From NCBI GenBank assembly GCA_012932295.1, contig JAAONU010000004.1, forward strand, positions 6,147,030 to 6,211,029: a stretch of DNA of 64,000 nt, given 5' to 3'. Below, piece by piece: positions 11,431 through 56,455 of the stretch (positions within the stretch are counted from its first letter, which is position 1; every line of letters starts with the position of its first letter). Made by a program: the position numbers and the translations under genes. This stretch comes from Cyclina sinensis. Taxonomy: Eukaryota > Mollusca > Bivalvia > Venerida > Veneridae. The notes under the pieces were generated by a model. The model was not told the DNA's origin, searched no databases, and was given only the letters and a program-made list of their open reading frames with translations.

Positions 11431-12308
11431 ATCATGAGACATTTATGAAAACATGAAATGAGTTTCAGTTCAACACAATTTGCATAATGTTTTTTATTTA
11501 AAAAGATGTTATATCGGTATCTGCATCCTTGGCAACAAAACTGTGTGTTTCAGGTGAGAACATAGTATTTTATTTGAATTTTATGGTGAAAATGCATGCA
11601 TTTGTATATAATTAAGCAAGAGGTTTATAAGTATAAAAGAGTATTTTTATAAGGGTGTGACAGGAAAAACAGTATCTGATAAGATAAAAAACTACTGGAA
11701 TCCCTGTATACAATGCATTTAGCTTCATTTTCTTTGTCCCTATCAAAAAAGTAGCCATGTACAAAGTACAGTTATTTTATGATAAATGAATGCATACATG
11801 TAAAAGTATAAAACTGTAAGTAACAACACCGAGATGGAGTTGTTTACACAGTTCTCTAAATATATATCCATGTTCATCTAATGTATGTTCAGGTGAAACG
11901 GGGTAGGAGAGAAGGGGGAGACATGTTCTTTATTTCACAAATAAACTCTAGTTTATCATGTAATTTTAGTTTTTGAATCCCGATACCATATGTTAATTTC
12001 CATGGACAAGACACATTTGTATATGATAGGCACTAATAATCTAGTGAATTTTGATACACTTTACTTATAAAATGCAGTGAGATTTCAAATAGATGATTAC
12101 ATCCTAGTTCTTGTTTTGTAGCCATTTTGGACAAAGAAGTTTTAGATAATAAACATTTTATCAGTAATGTTGCATTTCATGTTAATAGATAATACTTTGA
12201 GCCTTCATCCAGAAGACAGTTAGTACAGTTAGATAAGTAGCAGGAAATCAAGCTATGATATGTCCAGAACTGAAGTTATTAAGCTCTGATACAGTTGTTG
12301 TTGTTGTT
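11431..12308. other. Intron-like AT-rich sequence
   Basis: Nothing recognisable as exon, RNA gene or repeat boundary. Confidence 0.4.
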
Positions 12309-12912
12309 CTCTGTGTCTCTAAAACCTCAGAAGGCTGTCTTTATTGCCACCTTATTCAGGATCTTTGTGTGTCTAACACTTTAGAAAGCTGTCTGTATTG
12401 CCACACTTTTCAGGTTCTCTGTGTCTCAGAAACTTCAGAAAGTTGTCTCTATTGCCACACTATTCAGGTTCTCTGTGTCTCAGAAACTTCAGAAAGCTGT
12501 CTGTATTGCCACACTATTCAGGTTCTCTATGTCTCAGAAACTTCAGAAAGCTGTGTGTATTGCCACACTATTCAGGTTCTCTATGTCTCTAAAACTTCAG
12601 AAAGCTGTGTGTATTGCCACACTATTCAGGTTCTCTGTGTCTCAGAAACTTCAGAAAGTTGTCTCTATTGCCACACTATTCAGGTTCTCTGTGTCTCAGA
12701 AACTTCAGAAAGCTGTGTGTATTGCCACACTATTCAGGTTCTCTATGTCTCTAAAACTTCAGAAAGCTGTGTGTATTGCCACACTATTCAGGTTCTCTAT
12801 GTCTCTAAAACTTCAGAAAGCTGTCTGTATTGCCACACTATTCAGGTACTCTGTGTATCTGAAACTTAAGTACCCTGTCTGTATTGCCACACTTTCCAGG
12901 TTCTGTGTGTCT
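12309..12912. repeat. Minisatellite, 54-bp unit, about 11 copies
   Basis: Head-to-tail copies of a unit with CTCTGTGTCTCAGAAACTTC, AGAAAGCTGT and TATTGCCACACTATTCAGG. Central copies are nearly identical, and the edges are diverged. The 54-bp period keeps three frames open (up to 204 codons). No start context, splice signal or codon bias suggests that these are genes. Confidence 0.93.
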
Positions 12913-14040
12913 CTGAAAACTTGAAGGATTCTAATGTACATGGTCATGAGAGGGTTGCTATGTTGACTTGTGTATTGTGTCATACATTTAATTCTCTGAA
13001 TTATATTCATATTTCACTTGGTACTCATCTTTCTCTTGGTATGGATTTTTGTGCTTCACTCACTAATATGATTATAGGGAACAGAATGGTATCATAGTGA
13101 TACAGAAGTAGCATTTTACGGACAGCATGATATAGAGAAATTATTCTGATATTTTTGTCCATGGTCCCAGGTCTTGTTACAGGGAAAATATAATGGGTAT
13201 ATTACTGAAACTTAGGTTTAAAAATGTTAGCACCAACATATGCAGAAAAAAGAGCTGAAATCAAAGGACTGCGATGGCACCCTTTTGTGGCGACTTCTTG
13301 CATTTGACAGTTTGAAGCCCATGGTAGGAATTAAAGGTGTCTGTAAGCTATGAAGTCAACATTCTTTTTTTGAGAAAAACAAATAGAAGTAGCTAATTTA
13401 GTACTCTTCAAATTTTAGGTTTGATGATGATTATCTGTTTCCAGCAATCTTCAACTTGATATTGTACTTTTTATGCTATTTTTTTTTTATTTAGGGCTCT
13501 TTCATCAAAGAAAGGAATTAACTTGTTATGATGTTCATGCATACAACTGATACTTTTATTGTACTGAAATAGCACTGGCAGCTGAGACAGTCAGAAGCCA
13601 GTTTGACCTTGACCTGCTTGACCTTCACTTGGTTAATGGTGATTAGCTTCTGAAAATCTGCTTGATTTTTTTATAATGAAGATTTGGGTCCAAGATTCAG
13701 TGACTGGTTAAGTTCATAGCCTACTCAGATTCTTTAAATAGTCCTTGTTTTATGTATATGCATTTTGTGACTGCTCCCAAAATGGGACATGTAGCAGTGC
13801 TCCAATATAATTCAATAACTATTCTTTACTGTGTTCTTTGTCTGCTTCTCTTATTAAGGTTTTATAGATAATAGTTCCTTTTATTACAGACATATATTGT
13901 TGTTACAAGATTATGTTGTCTTTTCCAGTTTATTTTGTACTTTTCCTGAACAATAGATATCTGTAGGACATACAAGTAAATTTTTTGGGCTGATTATACC
14001 CCCCAGACAGAATATCTTTGGGCTATATTAAATTAATGTG
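12913..14040. other. Intron-like AT-rich sequence
   Basis: No supported feature. It contains scattered TGACCTTGACC motifs near 13600. Confidence 0.4.
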
Positions 14041-14670: not shown

Positions 14671-15479
14671 TTGCTCAAAAGCTTAAAGACCTTTTATCAC
14701 ATTGTTTTCACCTATCTAGAATTAACAAATGCTATGATATCCTCTGTCTTGATTTTCTCCTATAAAAACTTACCAGAAAGTGTTCTTCACAAAAATGCCT
14801 GAAATGCTCCAGGCTAATGCCAAATATTCATCAAAAGAAGTAATTCAGGACTCCTAAGGCTGGCATTGTCAGTTTCCACAGTTCTGTCCTCAGAAGCTGA
14901 AGAAAAGTCATTCATTTTTTTTGAGGAATAAAAGTCTAATTGGTTCAGTAGTGTAATGGCTTTCAAAGTTGATTTCTGGCAGTAATTTGTAGAATAATGT
15001 AATCAAATTAATGATACTGGATTTTGCTTGAAAGACTGTCATGGTTTGGCTTGAAAGACTCATGGCTGAAATGGTTATGCACAAAAGTACTTTCCGTGCT
15101 TTGATTCAAATATTGTTTTTTTTTATTGACATAAAACAGTATTGTTATAGTTTCATCTTTCAATGAATTTTTAAATAGCTTCTGAATTAATACTGATAGC
15201 TGTAGCTACCCTACATTGGTTTAGCTACCACATTGCTGACATTGTTGAACATTGAAAATTTATACATGTATTTTAATATTGTTTCCAAAGAATTGCCATC
15301 TGATCAAAGCAAAGATCTGTTTAAGTAAGTGATTACAAGACTGGCCTTCATTTTCTATCAAAAGAAAAAAGACATATGTTTTGGTTAAGAACTTCTATTC
15401 ATGGGTAGATGTATTGAAAATTACTGTCTGTTCTCTCGTAAGTAAAAGAAAAAAATCTCCAATGACACTGCGAAAAATA

Positions 15480-15785
15480 TGTAGATATACGGGAGTGTAC
15501 GGAATTCCGTATATCATTAATATACGGGTAAAAATACGGAAAACATAAAATACGGAGGTGTACGGTGTCGTATATTCAGCAAATCCGTATTTGACCAAAA
15601 TACGGTGTTCCGTATACTTACAAAACACGGAAAAGAAGATATACGGTGTCTGTATTTTTCTAAAATACGGGAACGTCATAATAAGTCCGTATATTACTAA
15701 AATACGGTATCCTGTATTCTTACAAATACAGGAGTATGCTTGCAAGTCCGTATATTACTCGAATACGGCATTCCGTATATTTGAA
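15480..15785. repeat. Left subterminal CCGTAT/ATACGG array of the CACTA element
   Basis: Dense, mostly palindromically paired motifs (TACGGAATTCCGTA, CCGTATATTACTAAAATACGG-like pairs) at spacings of 10-25 bp. In plant CACTA elements such as En/Spm, subterminal motif arrays bind the element-encoded protein. The same role here is inference. Confidence 0.85.
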
Positions 15786-17859
15786 AAAACGAATATAATA
15801 TCGGTCATAGTTACACAGTTACTGTTATATAGAGTTATAATGACTAGTTGAAACTAAGGATCTGTATATAGGAAAATGTTTTCTTTTCGTAATAATGGTT
15901 TTTCCTTTTTTTTCTTTTTTTTTGGGGGGGGGGAGGGGGTGGGGGTCTGTTAAAACTAAATTCCACTCTTGATTTTATGCCGGATATAAATCATAATCCG
16001 ATGCAGGCGTCTTAATCTTGAAAACGAAATTAAAATGAAACCGACTTACTTTTAATTAATCTGCCCGTGTCTATGTTCTAATATTTATCTCCAAGATGAT
16101 CAGTGATGTGCTTTATTGTCTTAACCAAATTGCAGTATTGGATTGTTAAAGCCGGATATGGATCATAGTTCACAGCAGGGTTTTCAAGTTTTTAACTAAA
16201 TTTAATCAAACCGTGCCTCTTGTTAAAAATTTCCTTGCTGGCTGATCTAATATTGCGTAACAGTGATGTACTTTATTGTCTTGAAACAACATTGCAATTT
16301 AAAGTAGGTTTTCTACGGTGATATTATTTATACTTAAATGTGCTCTTAGGTCTGCTTGTGCTTCTGTCTTTTAGAAGAAAAACTAAACTATAATGACTTT
16401 TAAAAAGTAAAAAATAAATGGCAGGTTCAATAATTCTTAAAAAGACCTTCTATTGAAATAATTAGTTTGCCTTTGCTTTGATTACATCGAGCATGTAGAT
16501 CTAATTTATCTAAACTGTCCTGTTTTTGGTTAGACATCTTTTTTCACCTATGATGAAACATGATTACTTATAAACAGCAAAGAAATTTAAGCCAGTAATA
16601 CAACATTTACAATTTTGCTTCAGAAAAATAAACAGCTTCATAACATTAAACTAGCTTAACCAGTTTGCTGTATGTTATAACAATAAACAAATAGTTTGTT
16701 TGCTATGAGATGTAAATTATCAATTAATATATAGAACGAATAATCAATTTACAGTTACAATTTACTTAGATGAATCATAGATAACATCTCAATCTGACGA
16801 ACTGTTAAATTAAGCTCTTGTGATATTCTCCGGTAGATTAATACTTTTTATTTTATCAAAATTTCACGAAAAACTGACTTTAAGAAGTACATGTTTCTAT
16901 CTTAAAAAGAAATCTGTATAAAAGGGTACAGTTACATGTGTCATAATTATTTCGTTTTCCGTAGTACAAGAAATATCGTCAACAATAATATTTAAAATAA
17001 GAAGAAAAAAAAGCAAACGTATTATTTGTAAGATCAATATCTTACAAACGTGTGCATTGAAGCTATAATTTTTTTCTGCATACACAAACTCGAATGCTGT
17101 ACATGTTAATACTTTGCAAAAAAAAAGAGAGAAAAAAAATCCGAAATGCAAGAAATAAATATTAGAGAAAAGGTCTATTCAGCAGTAGATGCTAAATTTT
17201 ATATAACAATCAGGAACAAATAAAGACCATGTTTTATAGCCTTCAGGCATTTTCTCAAGAGCAAATTTTGTTACTAAAGTGTTTTACTGTGACTGATCAA
17301 GGAACACCGACAAAGACAATTAACGGTGACTTATCAAAACAAAGCTAGTATGTCACCCCCATATTACGTAACCACATCCCTTCTCCACAGGACACCGCGA
17401 AAGACAAAAGAGTGTGATAATAATAGAAGCGCTAAATGATGCACTTTTATTGTCAAGTATTGTTTGAAACTGTATCATAGAATAAAACAATTTTTAGTTA
17501 ACATTCTATATCAACATGCGGTTGATGAGCGAAATGTTTAATTTTGTCCATTTTGTAAACTTTCAGAGGTGTTCAAATAATTGAAATCATATTTTCAACT
17601 TTTGGAAAGGAACAGTTATATGTGATTTACACGACTCAATCTTTAATTTTGAACAGTCAATGGTCTTAATTCACCGTCTTTCATGTATTTAATAATTCAA
17701 GTTAATAATATGTTCAAGTCAGTAATAAAACAAACAGAAAAGTAATAATAATACAATAAAATGATGTCACAGAATTCACGCGATAAAAGACAGCATGTCA
17801 CCTTGAAATGTGCTAAAGTTATACAAAGTTTTACGGGACTTAGGCATCACATCGAAGTT

Positions 17860-17937
17860 AAGCAGCCTTTTAATGGCGGACAGTCACGTGACATTTATAA
17901 TGGCGGCGTTCAATTTATCAGTTATGGAACGGTCTAC
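17860..17937 (+). promoter_or_regulatory. TATA-less promoter-like segment (E-box plus ATGGCGG motifs)
   Basis: An E-box CACGTGAC (about 17885) lies between two AATGGCGG motifs (about 17873 and 17909), a combination common at TATA-less metazoan promoters (USF/MYC-type and YY1-type sites). It sits directly upstream of the candidate start codon at 17938. Local CpG content is higher than the surrounding DNA. Function is inferred from motif content only. Confidence 0.4.
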
Positions 17938-17976
17938 ATGTGCGCTAAAACTTCAGAAGCAGATATAAGATCTTCG
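17938..17976 (+). CDS. Candidate exon 1 of a small gene inside the CACTA element
   Basis: ATG TGC GCT AAA ... TCT TCG|GTAATG gives 13 codons (MCAKTSEADIRSS) ending in phase 0 at an acceptable donor. The acceptor at 21372 accepts phase 0, so the joined product would be 46 residues. The same frame is open upstream to 17761, so the true start could be earlier. An alternative ATGGCGGCG at about 17910 is in another frame and stops after 22 codons. The gene could be a captured host fragment or an accessory gene of the transposon. Identity unknown. Confidence 0.35.
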
Positions 17977-18350
17977 GTAATGATCAATATTCATACATTA
18001 ATAACAGCTTTTTAAAGGCTAACAGTTTATATTTAAAGAGGTTCACTCAGTTATTATCATATTTTAGGCATCACACACAGTCAGGGGTGTTTAAAGTCTT
18101 CGTTTTTATTTATTATTTGCAATGATAGTTTTTTTTTTTTTTTCTTTTTCTCAAGACTAGCTCTACAAGATAATGATTTTTGCGCAGGTGGATCGAGACA
18201 CATGGGTATTTTGGCGACAACATCAACCAAGAAAACCATATTCATCAAGTTTTATTAACTAGATTGGTTCTCTTTTATCATAAAAATATTAGTTCCCCAA
18301 GACGAGAAAGAGAAATATACTGTACCTGTCAGTGTAACAAAGCACATACC

Positions 18351-18507
18351 ATGTGACCAGATCGCCCCAATCAAAGGTAGCGTGGGTTTATTCCATGTGA
18401 TCAATCCCACCAATCAAAGGAAGCGTGGGTTTATTTCATGTGATCAGATTGCACCAATCAAGTATAACTTGTGTTCACCTATCCAATCATTTCTTTGGGC
18501 GCGAAAT
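18351..18507 (+). promoter_or_regulatory. Promoter-like region: triplicated CCAAT unit plus E2F-like site
   Basis: Three head-to-tail copies of a ~44-bp unit (starts 18351, 18395, 18438) each carry CATGTGAYCA and CCAATCAA. The first two also share AGCGTGGGTTTATT. A fourth CCAAT (TATCCAATCAT, 18480) is followed by TTTGGGCGCGAAAT (18494-18507), an E2F-like sequence. Regularly spaced CCAAT boxes next to an E2F site are typical of NF-Y/E2F-driven proliferative promoters. It lies in the middle of the CACTA element, just upstream of a splice donor at 18587. Confidence 0.5.
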
Positions 18508-18529
18508 GGAAGAAGCAGATTTCAGCAAT

Positions 18530-18587
18530 TCATGTCTCAAAAATTGCCTTTTTTCGAAGTCTTCGTCATTTTGAAAACAAAAATGAG
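18530..18587 (+). CDS. Possible transposon first exon ending at a strong donor
   Basis: From the ATG near 18531 an open frame (MSQKLPFFEVFVILKTKM, then AG) reaches ATGAG|GTAAGT, a near-consensus donor, in phase 2. A different upstream ATG (18506) gives a 22-codon frame that stops before the donor and may act as an upstream ORF. The partner exon is not identified: splicing to 21372 would read that exon out of its natural-looking frame. It may be a noncoding or alternative leader exon. Confidence 0.28.
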
Positions 18588-18813
18588 GTAAGTCAAAGTT
18601 TTTGTATAATACTTTTCAGTTTTACTGAACTCATGCTTGGAATTAAATGCTTGATCATGCCCTGCAATGAATGGCTTATGATGATTTTTGTATGCTTCCG
18701 TTTTTAAACGGGTGTTGGTAAGTTCGGTAAAGTGTTGTTCATCGTCAAAATTAAATTCGTATTGCAGATATTAAACTGAATTTTCTTTTGAAAAATATTT
18801 AGATATTATATCA

Positions 18814-19097
18814 AATGACAAGCTACGATTATGTTCACATACTATAGAGATAGAGTTAGGAAGGTATGCTAATGTAGAAAGAGATAAAAGATTGTATAAA
18901 GTATGTGATCAAAAAACTGTAGAGTCTGCAGATAATTTTAATTTATGTTGCTCAGGATACAGCTATATAACACAAAACACTTAGGTCAATGTTCATGGTC
19001 TACTATACAAAAGTTCAATGCATTAACGTCATCTCAAAGTAAAAAATTGATGTATAATCTTGCAAAATATATCAAAGAAGCCTTATGTTTAAGACAG
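18814..19097 (+). pseudogene. LINE reverse-transcriptase-polyprotein C-terminal fragment
   Basis: The translation contains SHTIEIELGRYANVERDKR and a KVCDQKTVESADNF segment, the arginine-rich plus Cys motif found at the C-terminus of many molluscan LINE polyproteins. After a deleted and frameshifted stretch, WSTIQKFNALTSSQSKK and LMYNLAKYIKEALCLRQ follow, matching the usual helical tail. The His/Cys part that normally follows is missing and stops intervene, so this is a dead 3' fragment. It lies inside the CACTA element, either as a nested insertion or as captured DNA. Family recognition is from motif memory, not a search. Confidence 0.6.
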
Positions 19098-21371
19098 ATA
19101 GTGATAAAGTTGTTGTGAAAAGCGCCTTTGATGACGAGTTTAATTGGTGTTTTTGTGCAATTTCTATAAATATATAGTTGTATATAAAAATATATTAGTT
19201 ATTGATGTATCGAGTATTGATGTGTTGCAGTATATTATAAAAGTTTTATATATTTTAAATGTGTTTTCATATTAGTACATTGTCGTTATTAGATAATGAA
19301 CCGATTTAAATCAAAGATCAAGCCGTAATCATTGAATACATTACTTCCTTCAGCGTCATTTTAAGTGTAAAAAAGTAACTATGATTATAAAATTTTAGAA
19401 TCAGTTATAATAATTTTTATAATGACAATTGCATGACAAACACAAATTATATAATTACCTGCGGAGACAAATTAATAACCTATCTAACGACCGACACGTG
19501 TCGTTAGCACCTTTCTATGATCAGCAGTGTACCCCAGCATGCCTTTTCACACCTACTCTATCACCTTTATGGGTACATACAGTATTTTTATTGTTACCAA
19601 TTTTTCCTTTTTTCACTATATAAAATTATTTTACCGATATTTCGGTAAATCATTTGCATATTATAAGATAAGTGAGACTGAATAATTCTGTGAATAAGCC
19701 CTGATAGATAATTGATTATTTGTTTAAACATTCACAAATGTCGGCAATTAGATAATTAACTATTTCATAATCGAAATCAAAATTAAGAAAATTAAAGATT
19801 TTATTAATTAAAAAGACAAAATATGATTCTATAAGACGCATTGGCAATGAAATTGTAAAATGTGTAACATCCTGTTCCTAGTTCCTTAATATGATTGACT
19901 AGAGAATTAATTTTAATTGACAACGCATAAAAAGTTTTTATAATTTGATTAGAATAAATATTTTCATCGGCGTTAAGAACTTACAACGCTAATCAATAAA
20001 TTAGTGTATATAGCATATTAAGCAGAACAGAACAATATATGTTTTTATCAAGGTTTTTACATGGGGTATATCAAATGCTTTGTAGTCGGAAACAAAAGTT
20101 AAATGACTCCGGAACAAGAAATTACTTTAGTTTTTTTTCATAAAGGGAAAAAAAATGATAATACATATAAAAAACAACGAACAAATAACTGCTGAGTTCG
20201 GTACGTTGTATTTAGGGATATTGTTTAGGGGGACCTAATTTATCAAAGTTATTCCTATAAATTAAAGGAAAAATTTCAACAAAAACAGTTTTGATTATCA
20301 TTTTGTTATAGAACTTAAGATGGGAATTAATCAAATTACCATGTCATTAATAAAGGTGTTGATTAGAAGTTGTATGATACACTTGGCCTGTTACGGTAAA
20401 AGTGTTTATCAAGTTAGTGAATACTTATGCCATGATAACAAAATTTATTCGTAAGTCAGTTTAGCTTTTTTCTCCTTATTCAGTGGTATACCTAGCGAAA
20501 AAAGAATTACTGATTGGAAGGACATGAGTTTGCACACCGTTAGGTCAACAACTTTTTTCTTCCATTCTAAAGGTGTATAGAAGCGCAAAATTATGTTGTT
20601 GTTTTTTTCTCATGATATTTTGATTTCTCTTTAATTTTCAGAAGAACAGCTTCTTTAAGTAATAAGCGTTGTTTCCGTTTTTTACATTCATAATTATATT
20701 TTCTTCAATGTAATATAACTAATGAATTTGTTAGTGGAATATAAATTAAAAATCTGTTTTTTACCCGTCTTCTATGAAACATAACATCCCTTCACGTGCT
20801 TCGACAGGTCACGTGCATCACTCAGTAACGGTATATAATTCAATTTTTCAGAGAAATGTAGGACGAACAATTAAATAAATCACATATTCAATATGTATGA
20901 AAATGAAAATGGAAGTTATATTTACATTTCTTCTCCTTACTTATCTTTTCTTGGCTTTACTTATATTTACCTTACTTCTCCTTACTAATCTCTACGCATC
21001 CTTACTTTTGATATTTATGCATCCTTACTTATCTTTCTGCATCCTTACTTCTTATTTGTCTTTATGCATCCATACTTCCTTACGTTTATGCATACCATGT
21101 TTTTTGCAAAATACGCATGCGCAACTTTTAAACATGTGAAAAATAATTCTATGTAAAACTGCGAACACACAAAAAAGTAAGAATGAGAGTAATTAATTGA
21201 TGAAATATGCAACTCTTAATCATTCCAGCATCTTTCCATGACAATAACAATTTCGAAATAGGTAATACATTTTTTATGCAAAAGCGATCAAAACCCGGCA
21301 GTAAATGTTTAAAAGTAATGATTGAAAATTAATTAAAATACAAAATCAATGCTATCATTTTGTATTTTCAG

Positions 21372-21473
21372 ACAAATGGATCTTATGATGCCATTGCAGA
21401 GCTGCAGGAGCAGATGCGAGTCTTGCACGAGTCCCAGAAAAAGTCACAGCCACAAGACAATGAAGAAGAATAA
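21372..21473 (+). CDS. Candidate terminal exon of a small acidic-tailed protein
   Basis: A pyrimidine-rich acceptor (TTTTGTATTTTCAG) is followed by 33 codons and a TAA. The peptide starts TNGSYDAIAELQEQMRVLH, looks like a short amphipathic coiled coil and ends in a polar, acidic tail (SQPQDNEEE). An AATAAA follows at about 21487. It accepts phase 0 and would pair with the exon ending at 17976, or, less likely, with the host exon ending at 6259. There is slight resemblance to the C-terminal coil of MYCBP-like proteins, too weak to name. This is the most coding-like segment in the CACTA element. Confidence 0.45.
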   Translation, partial: TNGSYDAIAELQEQMRVLHESQKKSQPQDNEEE

Positions 21474-22274
21474 AAAAAACAAAAAGAATAAAACTTTATG
21501 AAATGCATGTTGTAAATGTATGTCCTTGTTAGAAACAGTGAAATAACTCACAATAATCCTATAAATCAAGTATGTTTATAAGTGAAACTGGGTCTTATAT
21601 ATAAGCTGTGATCGTAGCAAGTAAAAATGCCACTTCCACATAGTTTAATAAGATTTTTTTAAATATTTCTCATTTATATGTAGTACAGCTAAACAATGAC
21701 CCGTGACTACATACACATACAGTGATACTTGGATTTCTATTGATTAACGATAACGTATGAAACAATACCAATGGCATGAGCTGACAAATCTTTGATATTA
21801 CATATGTTATTGTAATTTGAATATATGTTTCCAAGTGGTCAAGGGTCACTAGTCATTGTTTGCATAACTTCAAGATTGATTTCAGTTATGTTCTTATCTT
21901 TGCAATATGCTTGGTTTTATTATTGATTGTTACTCTTTTATGATCATATTACATTTATTAATAAACTTGTTCATAAAATACTATTTATTAAATTCAGAAC
22001 TTATTTGAATTACTTTTGTTTGTGCACATCCTCATCCTTTACAAGTTACTGAGTTAATTTTTATCATGCTTATGGCATATTTCGTGTACGCCAAAGTAAA
22101 CTTTCTGTCAGTATATCTATTTAAAAAAGGTATGTTTCCTACCGTTCTCTCAGACATTGCAGGTCTTTATATTTTTTCGTATGCTTCAAGTCGATACGAC
22201 GAGGATCTTAACTAGTCTGTTCTAGAAATGAAGTAGTAACTAGATATAATGATCCCGCACATTATGTACATGTA

Positions 22275-22895
22275 AATTATCGGTCTATATTTGGTTCCTG
22301 TATCCTGTAATATATCATGTCCGTATTCTTGATCCGTACATGTAATATAATAAGTCCGTATATGTGTCATGTACGGCTTAAAGCTTTCCCGTATTTATTG
22401 AAAATACAATTCCGTATTTCCTACGTATATCTACAGTATACAAATTCCGTATTCTTGCCCCGTATTTGTGTCATATACGCTTTTAAGCATTTCCGTATTC
22501 TATGAAAATACATTTCCGTATATTCGTCGTATATCTCTAGTATACATAGTCCGTATTCTATCCCGTATATGCATCATGTACGATTTTTAGCTTTCCCGTA
22601 TTCTATAAAAATACAAGTCCGTATATTGGTAAACTAGATGTTGTTATAGCCCGTATATGGCTGAAATACGGGTTTCGTACTGTGCGTATATTACAAATAT
22701 ACGGACACATATACATACATGTATATTGGAAGAATACGGAAATCCGTATTTGTATGACTAATATACGGAGTTCCCGTATACCCGATGTTCCGAATACGGA
22801 TTAGTATTTTATGTCCGTATATTATGCGAATACGTCCCGTATATGCCCGTATATCTAAAAAATACGGGACCGTACACTTCCGTATATTGATGTAT
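22275..22895. repeat. Right subterminal CCGTAT/ATACGG array of the CACTA element
   Basis: About 600 bp with more than 20 CCGTAT or ATACGG motifs, twice the length of the left array. It includes a repeated ~100-bp block (CCGTATTC ... TATGAAAATACA). The array ends a few bases inside the right terminal inverted repeat. Confidence 0.85.
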
Positions 22896-23431
22896 TTTTC
22901 GCAGTGTGATAAGTTCTGGTATGAGTCTTGTCAAAAGAGCATTTCATATTGCTTTGGGTGCAAAGTCTTGCATCAAAAGTGAACTTAAAGTTTGAATTTA
23001 GTCATATAAAATGAATTTTATAAAGTTGAAATAAGATATTGTGACAGAGCATGGAAAATGTGATTAAGTTCCTTGCATGGTACTTATTTGTGATAATTCC
23101 ATCTCTAAGACGGCTGCTAATTGCGATTTCTAGATCGTTTCCTGGATGTGGTGCTGTACATATTTAATAGTATTATTGTCAAGATGATTCTGCACTAAGC
23201 TACTGTTTTGATGTTGCAGTGCACAAATGAATAATACAGAAGCTTTACCTTGTTCCAGAATGGAGAAATGAGCTCAGTAAAGCTCAACATATTTACTACA
23301 GTAATATGAAATTCTTTCTGAGTTAGACAATATGAGATCAGAGACTTGAAACCAGTATTTTTAGCATACATTTAAAGAAGCAGATTGTTAGGTCTTGTAT
23401 GCAGGGAAAAAGTGTTTGGCATTTTATGCAG

Positions 23432-28829: not shown

Positions 28830-29228
28830 CCTCTCATGCCACTATGTAAAAGTGCTAGTTTATTACAGTGAAACCTCTACTGAAAGTCCAAACTGCAGCC
28901 GATATGCAAAAGTACTTGTTTATTACAGTTGTCCTTTCTACTGAACGCCCAAACTGCTGCCTGTATGCAAAAATGCTAGTTTATTACCGTGAAACCTCTA
29001 CTGAAAGTCCAAACTGCAGCCAATATGCAGAAGTACTTGTTTATTACAGTGTCTTTTCTACTGAAAGCCCAAATGCTGCCAATATGCAAAAATGCTTGTC
29101 TATTACAGCGACACCTCAACTAGAAGCCCAAACTGCAGCCAATATGCAAAAATGCTCGTCCATTACAGTGACACCTCAACTGGAAGCCCAAACTACAGCC
29201 AATATGCAAAACAGACTATTCATTATGG
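28830..29228 (+). repeat. Minisatellite array A, unit about 60 bp
   Basis: Six to seven copies of a unit with GTTTATTACAGTG, CCTCTACTGAAAG and CCAAACTGCAGCCAATATGC. It is the reverse complement of the array that begins 60 bp further on. Confidence 0.9.
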
Positions 29229-29284
29229 TCAGATTGTTTCGACAACTAAAAAGTAGTAATACCGACTGATATCTCTTTGCTATA

Positions 29285-30335
29285 ATTATATAATATTTCC
29301 TTCAACCAAGCACTTTGGCAGCATATTTGCAACATATTGGCAGCATTTGGTCTGTAGTAGAGGTGTCACAATAACAAACAAGCACCTTAGCATATTGGCA
29401 GCATTTGGGCTTTCAGAATAGGTGTCACTGTAACAAACTAGCACTTTTGCATATTGGCAATATTCAGGCTACAGTAGAGATGTCACAATAACAAACAATC
29501 ACTTTGGCATATTGGCAGCAGTTTTGGCTTTCAGTAGAGGTGTCACTGTAACAAACAAGCACTTTGGCATATTGGCAGCAGTTTGGACTTCCAAAGTACT
29601 TTTGCATATTGGCAGCAGTAAGGGCTTCCTGTAGAGGTGTCACTGTAAAAGACAAGCACTTTGGCATTTTGTCAGCAATATGGGCTTTCAGTAGAGGTGT
29701 CACTGTAACAAACACACACTTTTGCATATTGGCAGCAGTTTGGACTTCCAGTAGAGGTGTCACTGTAATGAACAAGCACATTTGCATATTGGCAGCAGTT
29801 TGAACTTCCAGTAGAGGTGTCACTGTAATATACAATCACTTTTGCATATTTGCAGCAGTAAGGGCTTCCAGTAGAGGTGTCATTGTAACAGACAAGCACT
29901 TTGGCATATTGAAATTTTGGGCTTCCAATAGAGGGGTCACTGTAATAAACAAGCACTTTTGCATATTGGCAGCATTTGGGCTTTCAGTAGAGCTGTCACA
30001 GTAATAAACAAGCATTTGGTTTATTGGCAGCAGATTGGGCTTTCAGTAGAGAGGTCACTGTAATCAACAATTTCTTTTGCATATTGGCAACAGATTAGGC
30101 TTCCAGTAGAGGTGTCACAGAAATAAACAAGTTCTTTTGCATACTGGCAGCAGTTAGGACTTCCAGTAGAGATGTCACAGAAATATTCAAGTTCTTTTGC
30201 ATATTGGGAACAGTTAGGGCTCTAGTAGAGGTGTCACAGAAATAAATTCTTTTGCACAATTGCAGCAGTAAGGGCTTCCAGTAGAGGTGTCACTGTAATA
30301 AACAAGCACTTTGGCATATTGGCAAAAGTTTTGTT
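29285..30335 (-). repeat. Minisatellite array B, about 60-bp unit, inverted relative to array A
   Basis: Some 17 copies of a unit with GCATATTGGCAGCAGTTTGG, CTTCCAGTAGAGGTGTCACT and GTAACAAACAAGCAC. Open frames across it are products of the ~60-bp period. Confidence 0.9.
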
Positions 30336-30859: not shown

Positions 30860-31660
30860 TTTAGTGGACCTTTGGATAACAAGAACTATAATTTATGGAC
30901 CTGGGAAAACAAGAAATGATTTGTTGACTTTGGGAAAACAAAATCCAGTTCTTGGGCCTTGGGAAAACAAGAAATGATTTGTGGACCTTTGGAAAACAAA
31001 ATCCAGTTATTAGACCATAGGAAAACAAGAAATAATTTGACAGCCTTGGGAAAACAAAATCCAGTTCTTGGATCTTGGGAAATCAAGAAATGATTTGTGG
31101 ACCTTTGGAAAACAAAATCCAGTTATTAGACCATAGGAAAACAAGAAATAATTTGACAGCCTTGGGAAAACAAAATCCAGTTCTTGGGCCTTGGGAAATC
31201 AAGAAATGATTTGTGGACCTTTGGAAAACAAAATCCAGTTATTAGACCATAGAAAAACAAGAAATAATTTGACAGCCTTGGGAAAACAAAATCCAGTTCT
31301 TGGGCCTTGGGAAATCAAGAAATGATTTGTGGACCTTGGGAAAACAAACAAAATCAAGTTTTTGGACCTTGGGAAAACAAGAAATGATTTGAGGACCTTG
31401 GGAAAACAAAATCCAGTTCTTGGAACTTTTGAAAACAAGAAATGATTTTGGACCTTGGGAAAACAAAATCTAGTTCTTGGAACTTGGGAAAAACATGAAA
31501 ATAGTCAGTTGACCTTGGGAAAGTAAGATAGTTGTTTGTTGAATTTGACAAGTTAGTAATTATAAATTTGTGGAGTTTGGGAAAATAAGAAAGATGTTGG
31601 ACATTGAGAAAACATTATAAGTTTGTGGATCTTGGGAAATAAGAAAAGGTTTGTGGACCT
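30860..31660. repeat. Minisatellite, 29-bp unit with 116-bp higher-order repeat
   Basis: Units of 29 bp alternate between GACCTTGGGAAAACAAAATC-CAGTTCTTG and GACCTTGGGAAAACAAGAAA-TGATTTGTG types. GAAATGATTTGTGGACC recurs at 30971, 31087, 31203 and 31319, exactly 116 bp apart each time, so four-unit blocks were themselves duplicated. The flanks decay. Confidence 0.92.
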
Positions 31661-34789: not shown

Positions 34790-35640
34790 GTGTAACTGTT
34801 CTTACCTTTCTGGGACAGGTCTTGCCTTTCTAGAACTGTGCTGCAGGTCTTGCCTTTCTGAGACTGTGTTGCAGGTCTTGCCTTTTAGGGAACTTGCTGC
34901 AGCTCTTGCCTTTCTTGGACTATGTTACAGATCTTGCCTTTCTGAGACTGTGCTGCAGGTTTTGTATTCCTGGGACTTTGCTGCAGCTCTTGCCTTTCTG
35001 AGACTGTGCTGCAGGTTTTGTATTCCTGGGACTTTGCTGCAGCTCTTGCCTTTCTGAGACTGTGCTGCAGGTTTTGTATTCCTGGGACTTTGCTGCAGCT
35101 CTTGCCTTTCTTGGACTATGTTACAGGTCTTGCCTTTCTGAGACTGTACTGCAGGTCTTGCCTTTCTGAGACTGTGCTGCAGGTTTTGTATTCCTGGGAC
35201 TTTGCTGCAGCTCTTGCCTTTCTTGGACTATGTTACAGGTCTTGCCTTTCTGGGACTGTGCTGCAGGTCTTGCCTTTCTGAGACTGTGCTGCTGGTCTTG
35301 TATTCCTGGGACTTTGCTGCAGCTCTTGCCTGTCTTGGACTATGTTACAGGTCTTGCCTTTCTGAGACTGTACTGCAGGTCTTGTATTCCTGGGACTTTG
35401 CTGCAGCTCTTGCCTGTCTTGGACTATGTTACAGGTCTTGACTTTCTAGAACTGTGTCGCAGGTCTTGCCTCTCTGAAACTGTGCTGCAGGTCTTGTCTT
35501 TCCGGGTTTGTGTTACAGGCCTTGTCTTTCTGGGTTTGTGTTACACGCCTTGTCTTTCTGGGTTTGTGTTACAGGCCTTGTATTTCTGGGACTATGTTTC
35601 AGGTCTTGACTTTCTGGGAATGTACTTGCAGGTCTTCTCA
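34790..35640. repeat. Minisatellite, 28-bp unit, about 30 copies
   Basis: Variants such as GTCTTGCCTTTCTGAGACTG-TGCTGCAG, GTTTTGTATTCCTGGGACTT-TGCTGCAG and CTCTTGCCTTTCTTGGACTA-TGTTACAG recur in repeated orders, indicating multi-unit duplication. The right end is diverged. Three units make 84 bp, so long artificial leucine/cysteine-rich frames appear; I do not regard them as genes. Confidence 0.93.
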
Positions 35641-46899: not shown

Positions 46900-49600
46900 T
46901 TGTCAAGTTTGAATATTGCTCCTGATGACTTCTTCCTTTATACAATTTTGATCATGTTTGTCCAGTGTTTTAGGTAACTTCTTCATTGGTCCTGTGTGCT
47001 TTTTTTGTTGCAGATGCCTTCTTCCTTAAAACAGTTGTGGTCAGGTTTATCTAGTATTTCAGATGCCTTCTTCCTTAAAACAATTGTGGTCAGGTTTATC
47101 TAGTGTTTCAGATGCCTTCTTCCTTAAAACAATTGTGGTCTACTTTATCTAGTCTTTCAGAGGTATTCTTCCTTAAAACAATTGTGGTCAGGTTTATCTA
47201 GTGTTTCAGATGCCTTCTTCCTTAAAACAATTGTGGTCAGGTTTATCTAGTCTTTCAGAGGAATTCCTCCTTTAAAACAATTGTGGTCAGGTTTATCTAG
47301 TGTTTTAGATGCCATCATCTTTAAAACAATTGTGGTCAGGTTTATCTAGTGTTTTAGATGCCATCATCTTTAAAACAATTGTGGTCAGGTTTATCTAGTG
47401 TTTTAGATGCCATCATCTTTAAAACAATTGTGGTCAGGTTTATCTAGTGTTTTAGATGCCATCATCTTTAAAACAATTGTGGTCAGGTTTATCTAGTGTT
47501 TTAGGTGAATTCTTCCTTAAAACATTTGTGGTCAGGTTTATCTAGTGTTTCAGATGCCTTCTTCCTTAAAACAATTGTGGTCTACTTTATCTAGTGTTTC
47601 AGATGCTTCTTCCATAAAACAATTGTGGTCAGCTTTATCTAGTGTTTCAGATGAATTCTTCAGTGCAGTTTGATTAGATAGTGTTTATTTAGCTTTTTTG
47701 GTGACTGCTTCTTTTGAATAATCTGGGTTATCATGTAAATTTAATGTTTCAGGTGACTTTAGCCTTTGTACAAACTGGTTCATCATTGTTTCGTGTTTCA
47801 GAGGACTTCTTCCTTTAAAAGCACTGTAACATATTTGTCTAGAGTTTCTGATGACTTATTCTTTAATATACAGATTTGATTATATCTGTCTATTATTTCA
47901 TACGGCATCTTCCTTACAACAAACTGAGTCTTGTCTGTCTAGTGTTTCAGATTACTTTTTCCTTACAATAAAATGATTTATGTATGTCTAGTGTTTTATA
48001 TGACTTATTCCTTAAAACAAACTGAGTCTTGTCTGTCTAGTGTTTCAGATTACTTTTTTCTTACAATAAAATGAATTAAAATGAGTCAGGTCAGTCTTGT
48101 GTTTCAGATGTCTTCTTCCTTAGTAAACAGATTAGGTCATTTCTATCAAGTGTTTCAGATGACTTCTTTCTTACAACAAAGTGAGCCTTGTCTGCCTAGT
48201 GTTTCAGATGGCTTCTTTCTTACTTGTCAGTCCAGTGTTTCAGATGGCTTCTTCCTTAGTAAACAGATTAGGTCATTTCTATCAAGTGTTTCAGATGACT
48301 TCTTTCTTACAACAAGTGAGTCTTGTCTGTTTAGTGTTTCAGATGACTTCTTCCTTACAACAAACTGAGTATTATCTGTCTAGTGTTTCAGATCCCTTCT
48401 TCCTTACAACAAACTGAGTATTGTCTGTCTAGTGTTTCAGATGACTTCTTCCTTACAACAAACTGAGTCTTGTCTGTCTAGTGTTTCAGATGCCTTCTTC
48501 CTTACAACAAACTGAGTATTGCCTGTCTAGTGTTTCAGATTACTTTTTCCTTACAACAAACTGAGTCTAGTCTGTCTAGTGTTTTATATGATTTCTTCCT
48601 TAAAACAAACTGAGTATTGCCTGTCTAGTGTTTCAGATTACTTTTTCCTTACAACAAACTGAGTCTTGTCTGTCTAGTGTTTTATATGACTTCTTCCTTA
48701 CAACAAACTGAGTATTGCCTGTCTAGTGTTTCAGATTACTTTTTCCTTAAAACAAACTGAGTCTTGTCTGTCTAGTGTTTCAGATGACTTCTTCCTTAAA
48801 ACAAACAAGGTCTTGTCTGTCTAGTGTTTCAGATTACTTTTTCCTTACAACAAACTGAGTCTTGTCTGTCTAGTGTTTCAGATTACTTTTTCCTTAAAAC
48901 AAACTGAGTCTTGCCTGTCTAGTGTTTCAGATTACTTTTTCCTTAAAACAAACTGAGTCTTGTCTGTCTAGTGTTTCAGATTACTTTTTCCTTACAACAA
49001 AATGAGTCTTGTCTGTCTAGTGTTTTATATGACTTTTTCCTTAAAACAAACTGAGTCTTGCCTGTCTAGTGTTTCAGATTACTTTTTCCTTACAACAAAC
49101 TGAGTCTAGTCTGTCTAGTGTTTTATATGACTTCTTCCTTAAAACAAACTGAGTATTGTCTGTCTAGTGTTTCAGATTGCTTTTTCCTTAAAACAAACTG
49201 AGTCTTGTCTGTCTAGTGTTTTATATGACTTCTTCCTTACAACAAACAAGGTCTTGTCTGTCTAGTGTTTCAGATTACTTTTTCCTTACAATAAAATAAA
49301 ATAAAGTGAGTCTTGTCTGTCTAGTGTTTCAGATGACTTCTTCCTTAAAAACAAACTGAGTCTTGTCTGTCTAGTGTTTTATATGACTTCTTCTTTACAA
49401 CAAACTGAGAATTGTCTGTCTAGTGTTTCAGATTGCGTTTTCCTTAAAACAAACTGAGTCTTGCCTGTCTAGTGTTTCAGATTACTTCTTCCTTACAACA
49501 AACAAGGTCTTGTCTGTCTAGTGTTTCAGATTACTTTTTCCTTACAATAAAATAAAATAAAGTGAGTCTTGTCTGTCTAATGTTTAAGATGACTTATTCC
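46900..49600. repeat. Large minisatellite, 49-bp unit, about 50 copies
   Basis: The left part (47000-47660) uses ACAATTGTGGTCAGGTTTAT-type units. The right part (47930-49600) uses ACAAACTGAGTCTTGTCTGT units. Both share CTAGTGTTTCAGAT and TTCTTCCTTA at a 49-bp period, with a diverged stretch between. Every copy carries TTTCAG, a splice-acceptor look-alike. It ends at a C/T-rich tract (49612-49692). Confidence 0.92.
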
Positions 49601-54130: not shown

Positions 54131-56455
54131 TTTTTAGCTCACCTAATGCTCAGGGTGAGCTTTTCTGATCGGTCTTTGTCCGTCGTCTGTCCGTCCGTCT
54201 GTCCGTCGTCAACTTTTCATTCAAACGACATCTCCTCTGAAACCAATGGGGCAGATTTAGTGAAACTTGCCTGGGATGTTCCTTGCATGAAGCTCTACCA
54301 AGATTGTTCAAATGGTTCTGGTCCATTGCATTTCTGGTTCACTGGAGCTAAAAATAGATTTTATAAGTTGGATCTTTAAAAATCTTCTTCTCCGAAACCA
54401 CAAGGCCTGGAGCTTTGATATTTGGTATGAAGCATCATCTAGTGGACCTCTACCAAGTTTGTTCAAATTATGTCCCTGGGGTCAAAACTGACCCCACCCC
54501 AGGGGTCAGTTGATTTTACATAGAGTTATATAGGGAAAACTTGAAAATCTTCTTGTCAGAAACGAGAAGGCCTAGAGTTAAGATATTTGGTATGTAGCAT
54601 TGTCTAGTGAACCTCTACCAAGTTTGTTCAAATCATGGCCTCTGGGTCAAAAATGGCCCCGCCCTGGGGGTCACTTGTTTTACATAGAATTATATAGGAA
54701 AATCTTAAAAAATCTTCTTATCAGAAACCGTAAGACATAGAGCTTAGATATTTGGTGTGTAGCATTGTCTAGTGGACCTCTACCAAGTTTGTTCAAATCA
54801 AAGCTTCTGGGTCAAAAATGGCCCCGCCCCAGGGGTAACTTGTTTTACATAGAGTTATATAGGAAAATCTTAAAAAATCTTCTTGTCAGAAACTGTAAGG
54901 CATAGGGCTTAGATATTTGGTGTGTAGCATTGTCTAGTGGACCTCTACCAAGTTTGTTCAAATCATGGCCTCTGGGTCAAAAATGGCCCCGCCCCAGGGG
55001 TCACTTTTTTTACATAGAGTTATATAGGAAAAACTTTAAAAATCTTCTTATTAGAAACCGTAAGGCATAGAGCTTAAATATTTGGTGTGTAGCATTGTCT
55101 AATGGACCTCTACCAAGTTTGTTCAAATCATGGCCTCTGGGTAAAAAAAAGCCCTGCCCCAGGGGTCACTTGTTTTACATAGAGTTATATAGGAAAATCT
55201 TAAAAAATCTTCTTGTCAGAAACTGTAAGGCATAGGGCTTAGATATTTTGTGTGTAGCATTGTCTAGTGGACCTCTACCAAATTTGTTCAAATCATGGCC
55301 CCTGGGTCAAAACTAGCCCCGCCCAAGGGGTCACTTGTTTTACATAGAGTTATATAGGAAAAACTTTAAAAGTCTTCTTGTCAGAAACTGTAAAGCATAG
55401 AGCTTAGATATTTTGTGTGTAGCATTGTCTAGTGGACCTCTAATAAGTTTGTTCAAATCATAGCCACTGGGTCAAAATAGGCCCAGCCCTAGGCGTCACT
55501 TGTTTACATAGAGTTATATAGGAAAAGGTTTTAAAAATCTTCACAGAATAAACCATAAGGCTTAGAGTTAAGATATTTTGTATGAAGCATTGTCTAGAGG
55601 ACCTCTATCAAGTTTGTTCAAGTCATGGCCCCTTGGTCAAAAATGGCCCCGCCCCAGGGGTCACATGTTTTACATAGAGTTATAAAGGAAAATCTTTAAA
55701 AATCTTCTTGTCATAAACAACAAGGCCCAGAGTTAACATATTTGGTGTGCAGCATTATCTAATGGACCTCTCTCAAGTTTGTTCAAATCATGGCCCCTTG
55801 GTCAAAATAGGCCCTGCCCTAGGGGTCACATGTTTTACATAGAATTATATAGGAAAAACTTGAAAAATCTTCTTGTCAGAAACCACAAGTCCTAGAGTTA
55901 AGATATTTGGTATGCAGCATTGTCTAGTGGACTTCTACCAAGTTTATTAGAAAAATGTCCCTGGGGTCACTATTGGCCCTGCCAGAGGGGTCACAAGTTA
56001 TAAATAACAATATAGAAGAAAATCTTTAAAAATCTTCTTGTCTGAAACCACAAAGCCTAGAATTTTAAAATTTTGCACGAAGCAAGCTTTACCAAGCTTT
56101 TTCAAATTATTAGATCAGGTTAAAGGTCACTGAGGCTAAAAGTAGATTTATCTACTGTACCTCATAGAGCCTTCATTTATAGACCAATATCTTTGATATT
56201 CAGTATAGAGGTTCCTTGCATGGACCTCTACCCATACGTAAGGTTTGAGGTCACTGGGTCAAGGTCAAGGTCACCATAACTTATAATAGATATTTCTACT
56301 TTCTGTCATAGAGCCTTTATTTATTGACTGATATTTTACATATTTGGTTTGTAGGCACTTACATATTTCCAATTAAAAAATGAAATACTGCTTAACAGCA
56401 AACCTACAGCCAAAGTACTCAGGTGAGCGATCCAGGGCCATCATGGCCCTCTTGT
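54131..56455 (+). mobile_element. Near-complete tandem-repeat-core (pearl/Helentron-like) element
   Basis: Starts TTTTAGCTCACC, with an AGCTCACC/GGTGAGCT hairpin (54136-54161) and a (GTCCGTC)n run. About ten units of ~165 bp follow (AATCTTCTTGTCAGAAAC, AGCATTGTCTAGTGGACC, CTACCAAGTTTGTTCAAAT, GGCCCCGCCCCAGGGGTCAC). The 3' module carries GGTCAAGGTCA, then GGTGAGCGATC, a GGGCCATCATGGCCC hairpin and TCTTGT. No coding capacity. Confidence 0.8.

Follow-up and report, generated by a model that had tools for sequence, protein, structure and literature searches.

A probable non-autonomous CACTA element with a gene-like interior, one of many copies in the clam Cyclina sinensis

The non-autonomous CACTA (EnSpm) elements of plants, such as dSpm and Pack-CACTA, have CACTA or CACTG ends, 3-bp target-site duplications and subterminal motif arrays, and they combine the lack of a transposase with a gene-like interior (Pack-CACTA elements are described in PMC8903248 and PMC13317346). 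Here we describe an element with the same combination of features in the clam Cyclina sinensis. We analyzed a window of 64,000 nucleotides (the whole stretch of DNA under study, positions 6,147,030 to 6,211,029 of contig JAAONU010000004.1), and coordinates below are those of the window. We think it very probable that positions 15466–22906 are one copy of an abundant non-autonomous CACTA (EnSpm, CMC) family.

Several animal systems share some of these features. The TRC elements (SmTRC1 and its kin) are CACTA-type elements with Transposase_21 that are found in animals (PMC1636069). The Pack-TIRs of animals are DNA transposons with duplicated host sequence, and some are multicopy; of the 370 Pack-TIRs reported in animals, 323 belong to hAT or Tc/mariner, and that report names CACTA once, within the reference list (PMC8277862). 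Studies of bivalve repeats report EnSpm and CMC elements (PMC8905726, PMC10294476), so a CACTA family in a clam is in itself unsurprising. A literature search by titles and the openings of abstracts, with most subscription journals outside its reach, found no gene-capturing CACTA element in animals.

Ends, copies and insertion sites

The element proper is complete and occupies 15466–22906 (7,441 bp), from CACTG to CAGTG. TGA target-site duplications flank it on the left (15463–15465) and on the right (22907–22909). An earlier note, made by a model from the letters of the window, had proposed a complete element with these termini and with TGA on both sides; the sequence bears this out, except that the proposed span of 15463–22909 counts both duplications as part of the element. 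The left terminal inverted repeat (15466–15502, plus strand) begins with CACTGCGAAAAATA, and these 14 bp are the exact identity between it and the right terminal inverted repeat (22870–22906, minus strand). A repeat finder gives arms that are 85% complementary over 41 nt, with the duplication included in the arm. Thus, the extended similarity that was claimed for the ends is present, and the 16 bp of near-identity shrinks to 14 bp if exact matches are required.

The subterminal arrays of CCGTAT (or ATACGG) that the note described are just as clear. The first 335 bp of the element (15466–15800) contain 15 of these motifs, as compared to a mean of 0.8 and a maximum of 4 in 300 dinucleotide shuffles, and the last 607 bp (22300–22906) contain 25, as compared to a mean of 1.9 and a maximum of 8. 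The left array runs from 15487 to 15778 and the right array, which is in part a 104-bp tandem repeat, from 22321 to 22885. There are no such motifs in the 6.5 kb between them. Subterminal arrays are typical of CACTA elements.

To describe the family, we scored part of the first-look candidates from each genome search: 40 of 546 for the left 338 bp, 150 of 265 for the putative last exon (described below), 150 of 581 for a translated frame at the right end, and 150 of 862 for a translated frame at the left end. All 40 of the scored left ends, which include the window itself, are 94–100% identical. We fetched about 9.9 kb for each of 20 of the other 39. All 20 fetched copies have CACTGCGAAAAATA at the left end, and the window copy has it at each end. 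The fetched copies follow the window copy over its full length or to the limit of the fetched DNA, save for L040, which diverges after 18201. Judging from these alignments, the ends of the element are not due to chance, because the scored left ends are nearly identical and the copies stop at the same bases. The family is abundant in this genome.

Both ends were found in 15 of the 20 fetched copies. Of these, 14 have matching 3-bp duplications, which vary in sequence. The end-to-end span in 14 measured copies is 6,000–9,198 bp, and the longest of these holds a nested insert. Leaving out L040, the copies form a “short” subfamily of 13 copies that are 1.0–1.6% from their own consensus, and a “long” subfamily of 7 copies, including the window copy, that are 1.7–3.0% from theirs. 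Within the short subfamily, the regions corresponding to 15466–15800 and 22300–22906 are less variable than the interior (0.0069 and 0.0081 vs. 0.0131), which should be read with the fact that copies were picked via the left end and not the right end.

For the window copy and 14 others, we then joined the two flanks, minus one duplication, and compared them to all of the fetched DNA. Two of the 15 joined flanks (those of L031 and L043) had spanning matches to empty sites, and the better alignments are gapless at the joint. The target of L031 is a 165-bp tandem repeat, with unoccupied units also at 54376–56061 in the window, and the target of L043 is another tandem array with unoccupied units. 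These paralogous empty sites, which the earlier note had suggested looking for, show that insertion is precise and comes with a 3-bp duplication.

The arrays described above also argue against membership in Chapaev3 instead of CACTA, which we consider improbable. Chapaev3 elements do have CAC...GTG ends and a 3-bp duplication, and CAC/GTG ends with duplications of 3–4 bp define Chapaev as well, but Chapaev3 elements duplicate TWA, at sites with A on one side and T on the other (PMC4079192). We do not see this preference: in a count by hand over the window and 14 copies, just 3 of the 15 duplications are TWA.

The translated frames at the two ends serve as markers of position. A right-end marker (60–100% identity for the 150 that were scored) lies within 25 kb of 38 of the 40 scored left ends, and within 12 kb for 37 of these. 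Using our own cut on the score, we classed 49 of the 150 left markers as close and 101 as more distant. A scored right marker lies on the same strand within 20 kb of 42/49 close and 32/101 distant left markers, and a scored last exon lies on the same strand within 15 kb of 27/49 and 64/101. Going upstream from the 150 right markers, there is a scored last exon within 12 kb for 70, mostly at 1.2–1.45 kb, and none for the other 80. These 80 include the window copy with its frameshifted exon, so a right marker may lack a scored exon and still belong to an element with the usual interior, but some of the 80 may have a different one. A 1.8-kb piece of one copy in the distant group (L051) confirms that there is a related subfamily, which has an internal deletion of its own, as well as an insertion of a long interspersed nuclear element (LINE) that is private.

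Some other features of these loci are worth recording. L037 has an exact second copy of the 81 bp that adjoin its left end, at about 110 bp into the flank on the right. L047 and L049 are interrupted by the same LINE, and because its frame of 1171 amino acids is open in both, we suggest that this LINE was recently active. Two sites, C1:65237961–65246284 and C12:37266115–37274510, have the same layout, with last exons on the plus and minus strands that are 8.2 and 8.3 kb apart; each may be a pair of elements, either nested or duplicated. Tandem repeats are unusually frequent in the window itself (56 rows, such as 1660–2876, 12306–12922, 28838–30331, 30896–31522, 34816–35636, and 47006–49544). 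Outside of these repeats, we saw no further long gene-like frame by eye, and scanning the window for Rfam families and tRNAs gave no match.

Transposase genes in the element and in the genome

No transposase is visible in the element, as the note had stated. We ran hmmscan on all six frames of 15466–22906 (with X at stops) and found no Pfam families at E values of up to 10. The same treatment of the LINE in L049 recovered RVT_1 and the endonuclease, so the procedure can detect the gene of a transposable element. The longest frame in the consensus of the copies is 173 amino acids and is apparently driven by repeats. Across copies, the interior varies evenly, with no conserved peaks. Nested inserts in the interiors of the fetched copies are other mobile elements, with no transposase among them. 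It is true that hmmscan on single frames can overlook short exons and that the Pfam model for Transposase_21 (PF02992) covers just 213 positions. Nevertheless, given the empty scan, the short consensus frame and the even variation, we think it very improbable that the element is autonomous and encodes a transposase whose divergence or splitting by introns hides it from Pfam.

The genome does contain Transposase_21 genes. We found 48 matches above the cut-off, as compared to none in 14 control genomes. By our count, which was done by hand, 34 of the 48 are in stop-free frames of 600–991 amino acids. None of the 48 lies within 30 kb of any of the 150 scored left ends or the 150 scored right ends, and none lies within 20 kb of any of the 150 scored last-exon matches.

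The family appears to be non-autonomous. Since the element lacks a recognizable transposase, the enzyme would be supplied from elsewhere, and the genome's long-frame Transposase_21 genes could be the helpers. By analogy to the CACTA elements of plants, this transposase would most likely bind the CCGTAT arrays and cut at the CACTG ends. The matching duplications and the paralogous empty sites show cut-and-paste transposition with a 3-bp duplication.

The interior and its possible origins

The interior contains promoter-like blocks, a donor/acceptor pair, and a LINE fragment, all of which the earlier note had pointed out. We consider two origins for it to be about equally likely. The promoter and the first and last exons may be remnants of the transcription unit of an autonomous CACTA element, now lost, from which the transposase exons were removed or exchanged for other DNA; this is a plausible origin, which we put forward tentatively. 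Or, the genomic DNA of a host gene (a promoter, a first exon, an intron with a LINE in it, and a last exon with its poly(A) signal) was captured once and then multiplied, which would make this an animal Pack-CACTA; this is possible but doubtful.

The first promoter-like block (17865–17973, plus strand) is predicted from its base composition and contains a CACGTG E-box and AATGGCGG. In the consensus of the short subfamily, it is 42% G+C and has 7 CpG, as compared to 31% G+C overall. The second block (18367–18506, plus strand) is predicted from its motifs: it has four CCAAT boxes in one orientation, along with TTTGGGCGCGAAA, which resembles an E2F site, and it includes tandem 43-bp units. Further CACGTG E-boxes lie within 19438–19537 and 20741–20840. 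Both blocks stand out from the AT-rich remainder of the element, as expected if a promoter was captured. Also, E2F/CCAAT and E-box blocks are more typical of host promoters, which argues against a relic of the element's own transcription unit.

Downstream of these blocks is a putative mini-gene. The first exon (18507–18587, plus strand; based on the sequence and the consensus, with a nominal start) ends with ATGAG, just before a GTAAGT at 18588, and the last exon (21372–21473, plus strand) is preceded by the acceptor TTTTCAG and followed by AATAAA. In the consensus, splicing from ATGAG and GTAAGT (18583–18593) to this acceptor is predicted to be in frame and to yield a product of 35 amino acids, MRQMDLHDAIAELQEQMRVLHESQKKSQPQDNEAE. 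The donor on its own means little, because GTAAGT occurs at three other places. Of 16 readable copies, 13 keep the joined frame intact. The exceptions are the window copy and L043, which are frameshifted, and L038, which has a stop codon; five of the fetched copies do not have a readable last exon. That donor and acceptor join into a single open frame favors capture, while a product of just 35 amino acids weighs against it.

Between the two exons is a LINE relic (18775–19194, plus strand) that is 35% identical over 48 amino acids (E = 4e-6) to the end of a LINE's reverse-transcriptase frame. Its position in the would-be intron would fit a captured gene. Of 19 informative copies, 13 lack the segment 18831–19194 and have an ATTA microhomology at the joint, so the difference is a deletion from those copies rather than an insertion into the window copy. 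We also considered a second family linked to a LINE, and rejected it: L051 does have a LINE after the exon, but this is a 5'-truncated insertion that is private to it, and other near-identical copies of this piece are not beside scored last exons.

If the last exon came from a host gene, then we might hope to recognize the parent, but no parental gene was identified. In the genome, the last exon has 150 scored matches, all of them at least 94% identical (48 are at 100%), and 114 of them have a left or right marker of the element nearby on the same strand; a parental gene may be among the other 36 or among the 115 candidates beyond the scored set. Pfam has no family for this exon, which also counts against capture. 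The best lead from a structural database was the coiled coil of BRD4 (E = 0.35), which is not significant, as about one chance match is expected per three such searches. It gives capture a lead at most.

Some evidence favors the lost autonomous element. The CACTA elements of plants have one long transcription unit that is alternatively spliced, and in the schistosome element, an accessory DNA-binding protein was not detected in relatives by BLAST (PMC1636069), so an exon from outside the transposase would be expected to lack a Pfam match. Non-autonomous copies arise by internal deletion, and internal deletions are common in the interiors of these copies. On the other hand, the six frames contain no remnant of a transposase, which suits capture better, and no scored match to the family is near a Transposase_21 match.

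We also checked if the last exon is under selection in the present copies. Relative to the consensus, the 16 readable copies have 18 nonsynonymous changes, 1 synonymous change, 1 stop, and 2 frameshifts, with several of the changes common to more than one copy; all possible changes to the exon would give 218:54:16 (nonsynonymous:synonymous:stop). The exon's rate of change is 0.0153 in the short subfamily, vs. 0.0131 for the element, and 0.0239 vs. 0.0238 in the long subfamily. The exon thus changes at the rate of the element in both subfamilies. The present copies show no purifying selection, and we reject selection on the last exon in them: it varies as if neutral.

We also rejected the idea of copy-specific cargo, as the interior is shared by the fetched copies. 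Because it is shared, any capture would be a single ancestral event. We propose that the promoter-like blocks, the possible two-exon mini-gene, and the LINE relic were gained once, before the family spread, and that they are carried as ballast, which would decay after each insertion. Gene capture is possible but unproven. The more specific claim, that a CACTG-ended family spread a captured host promoter with a first and a last exon, as genomic DNA, to hundreds of places, seems unlikely.

Four observations weigh against an ordinary non-autonomous CACTA family with a neutral interior. First, L046 has both ends but no matching duplication. Second, each genome search was scored in part. Third, the scored genome matches include no autonomous element with these ends, so transposition in trans is something that we infer. 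Fourth, the last exon of L051 is identical to the short consensus while its flanks differ at 20/599 and 52/711 columns, which hints weakly that the exon was constrained in the master lineage; this is tempered by stretches of L051 near the exon that are almost as similar.

Comparison with known CACTA-type elements

Of the four features by which CACTA elements are defined, three are present at this locus: CACTA/CACTG ends, a 3-bp duplication, and subterminal arrays in two orientations. The fourth is mobilization by a TNP2/Transposase_21 transposase, for which the genome has candidate genes, with none within 30 kb of the scored ends. The TRC elements of animals have ends that start with CCC and 2-bp duplications (PMC1636069), whereas this family has CACTG and 3 bp. 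Like Pack-CACTA, it has CACTA-type ends and no transposase. It differs from the Pack-CACTA elements of plants in that no parental host gene was identified among the scored matches and in that the interior is constant across a family with copies of 7 kb. The note had named two results that would refute its proposal, a lack of other copies and empty sites, and a transposase recovered by HMM search; other copies and two paralogous empty sites do exist, and the HMM search of this copy recovered no transposase. Thus, the proposal that this is a gene-capturing CACTA stands as far as a CACTA element with a gene-like interior; capture from a host gene is a possibility, with no parent identified among the scored matches and a last exon that varies as if neutral.

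As the evidence stands, this is an ordinary non-autonomous transposon. If its interior does turn out to be a captured host promoter with exons, then Pack-CACTA formation would extend beyond plants, and the family would be a source of hundreds of mobile promoters. Either way, here is an animal genome with an abundant CACTA family whose ends (CACTG), 3-bp duplications and subterminal arrays are of the plant type and whose empty sites are precise, and this family should help to find out which of the Transposase_21 proteins in the genome moves it.

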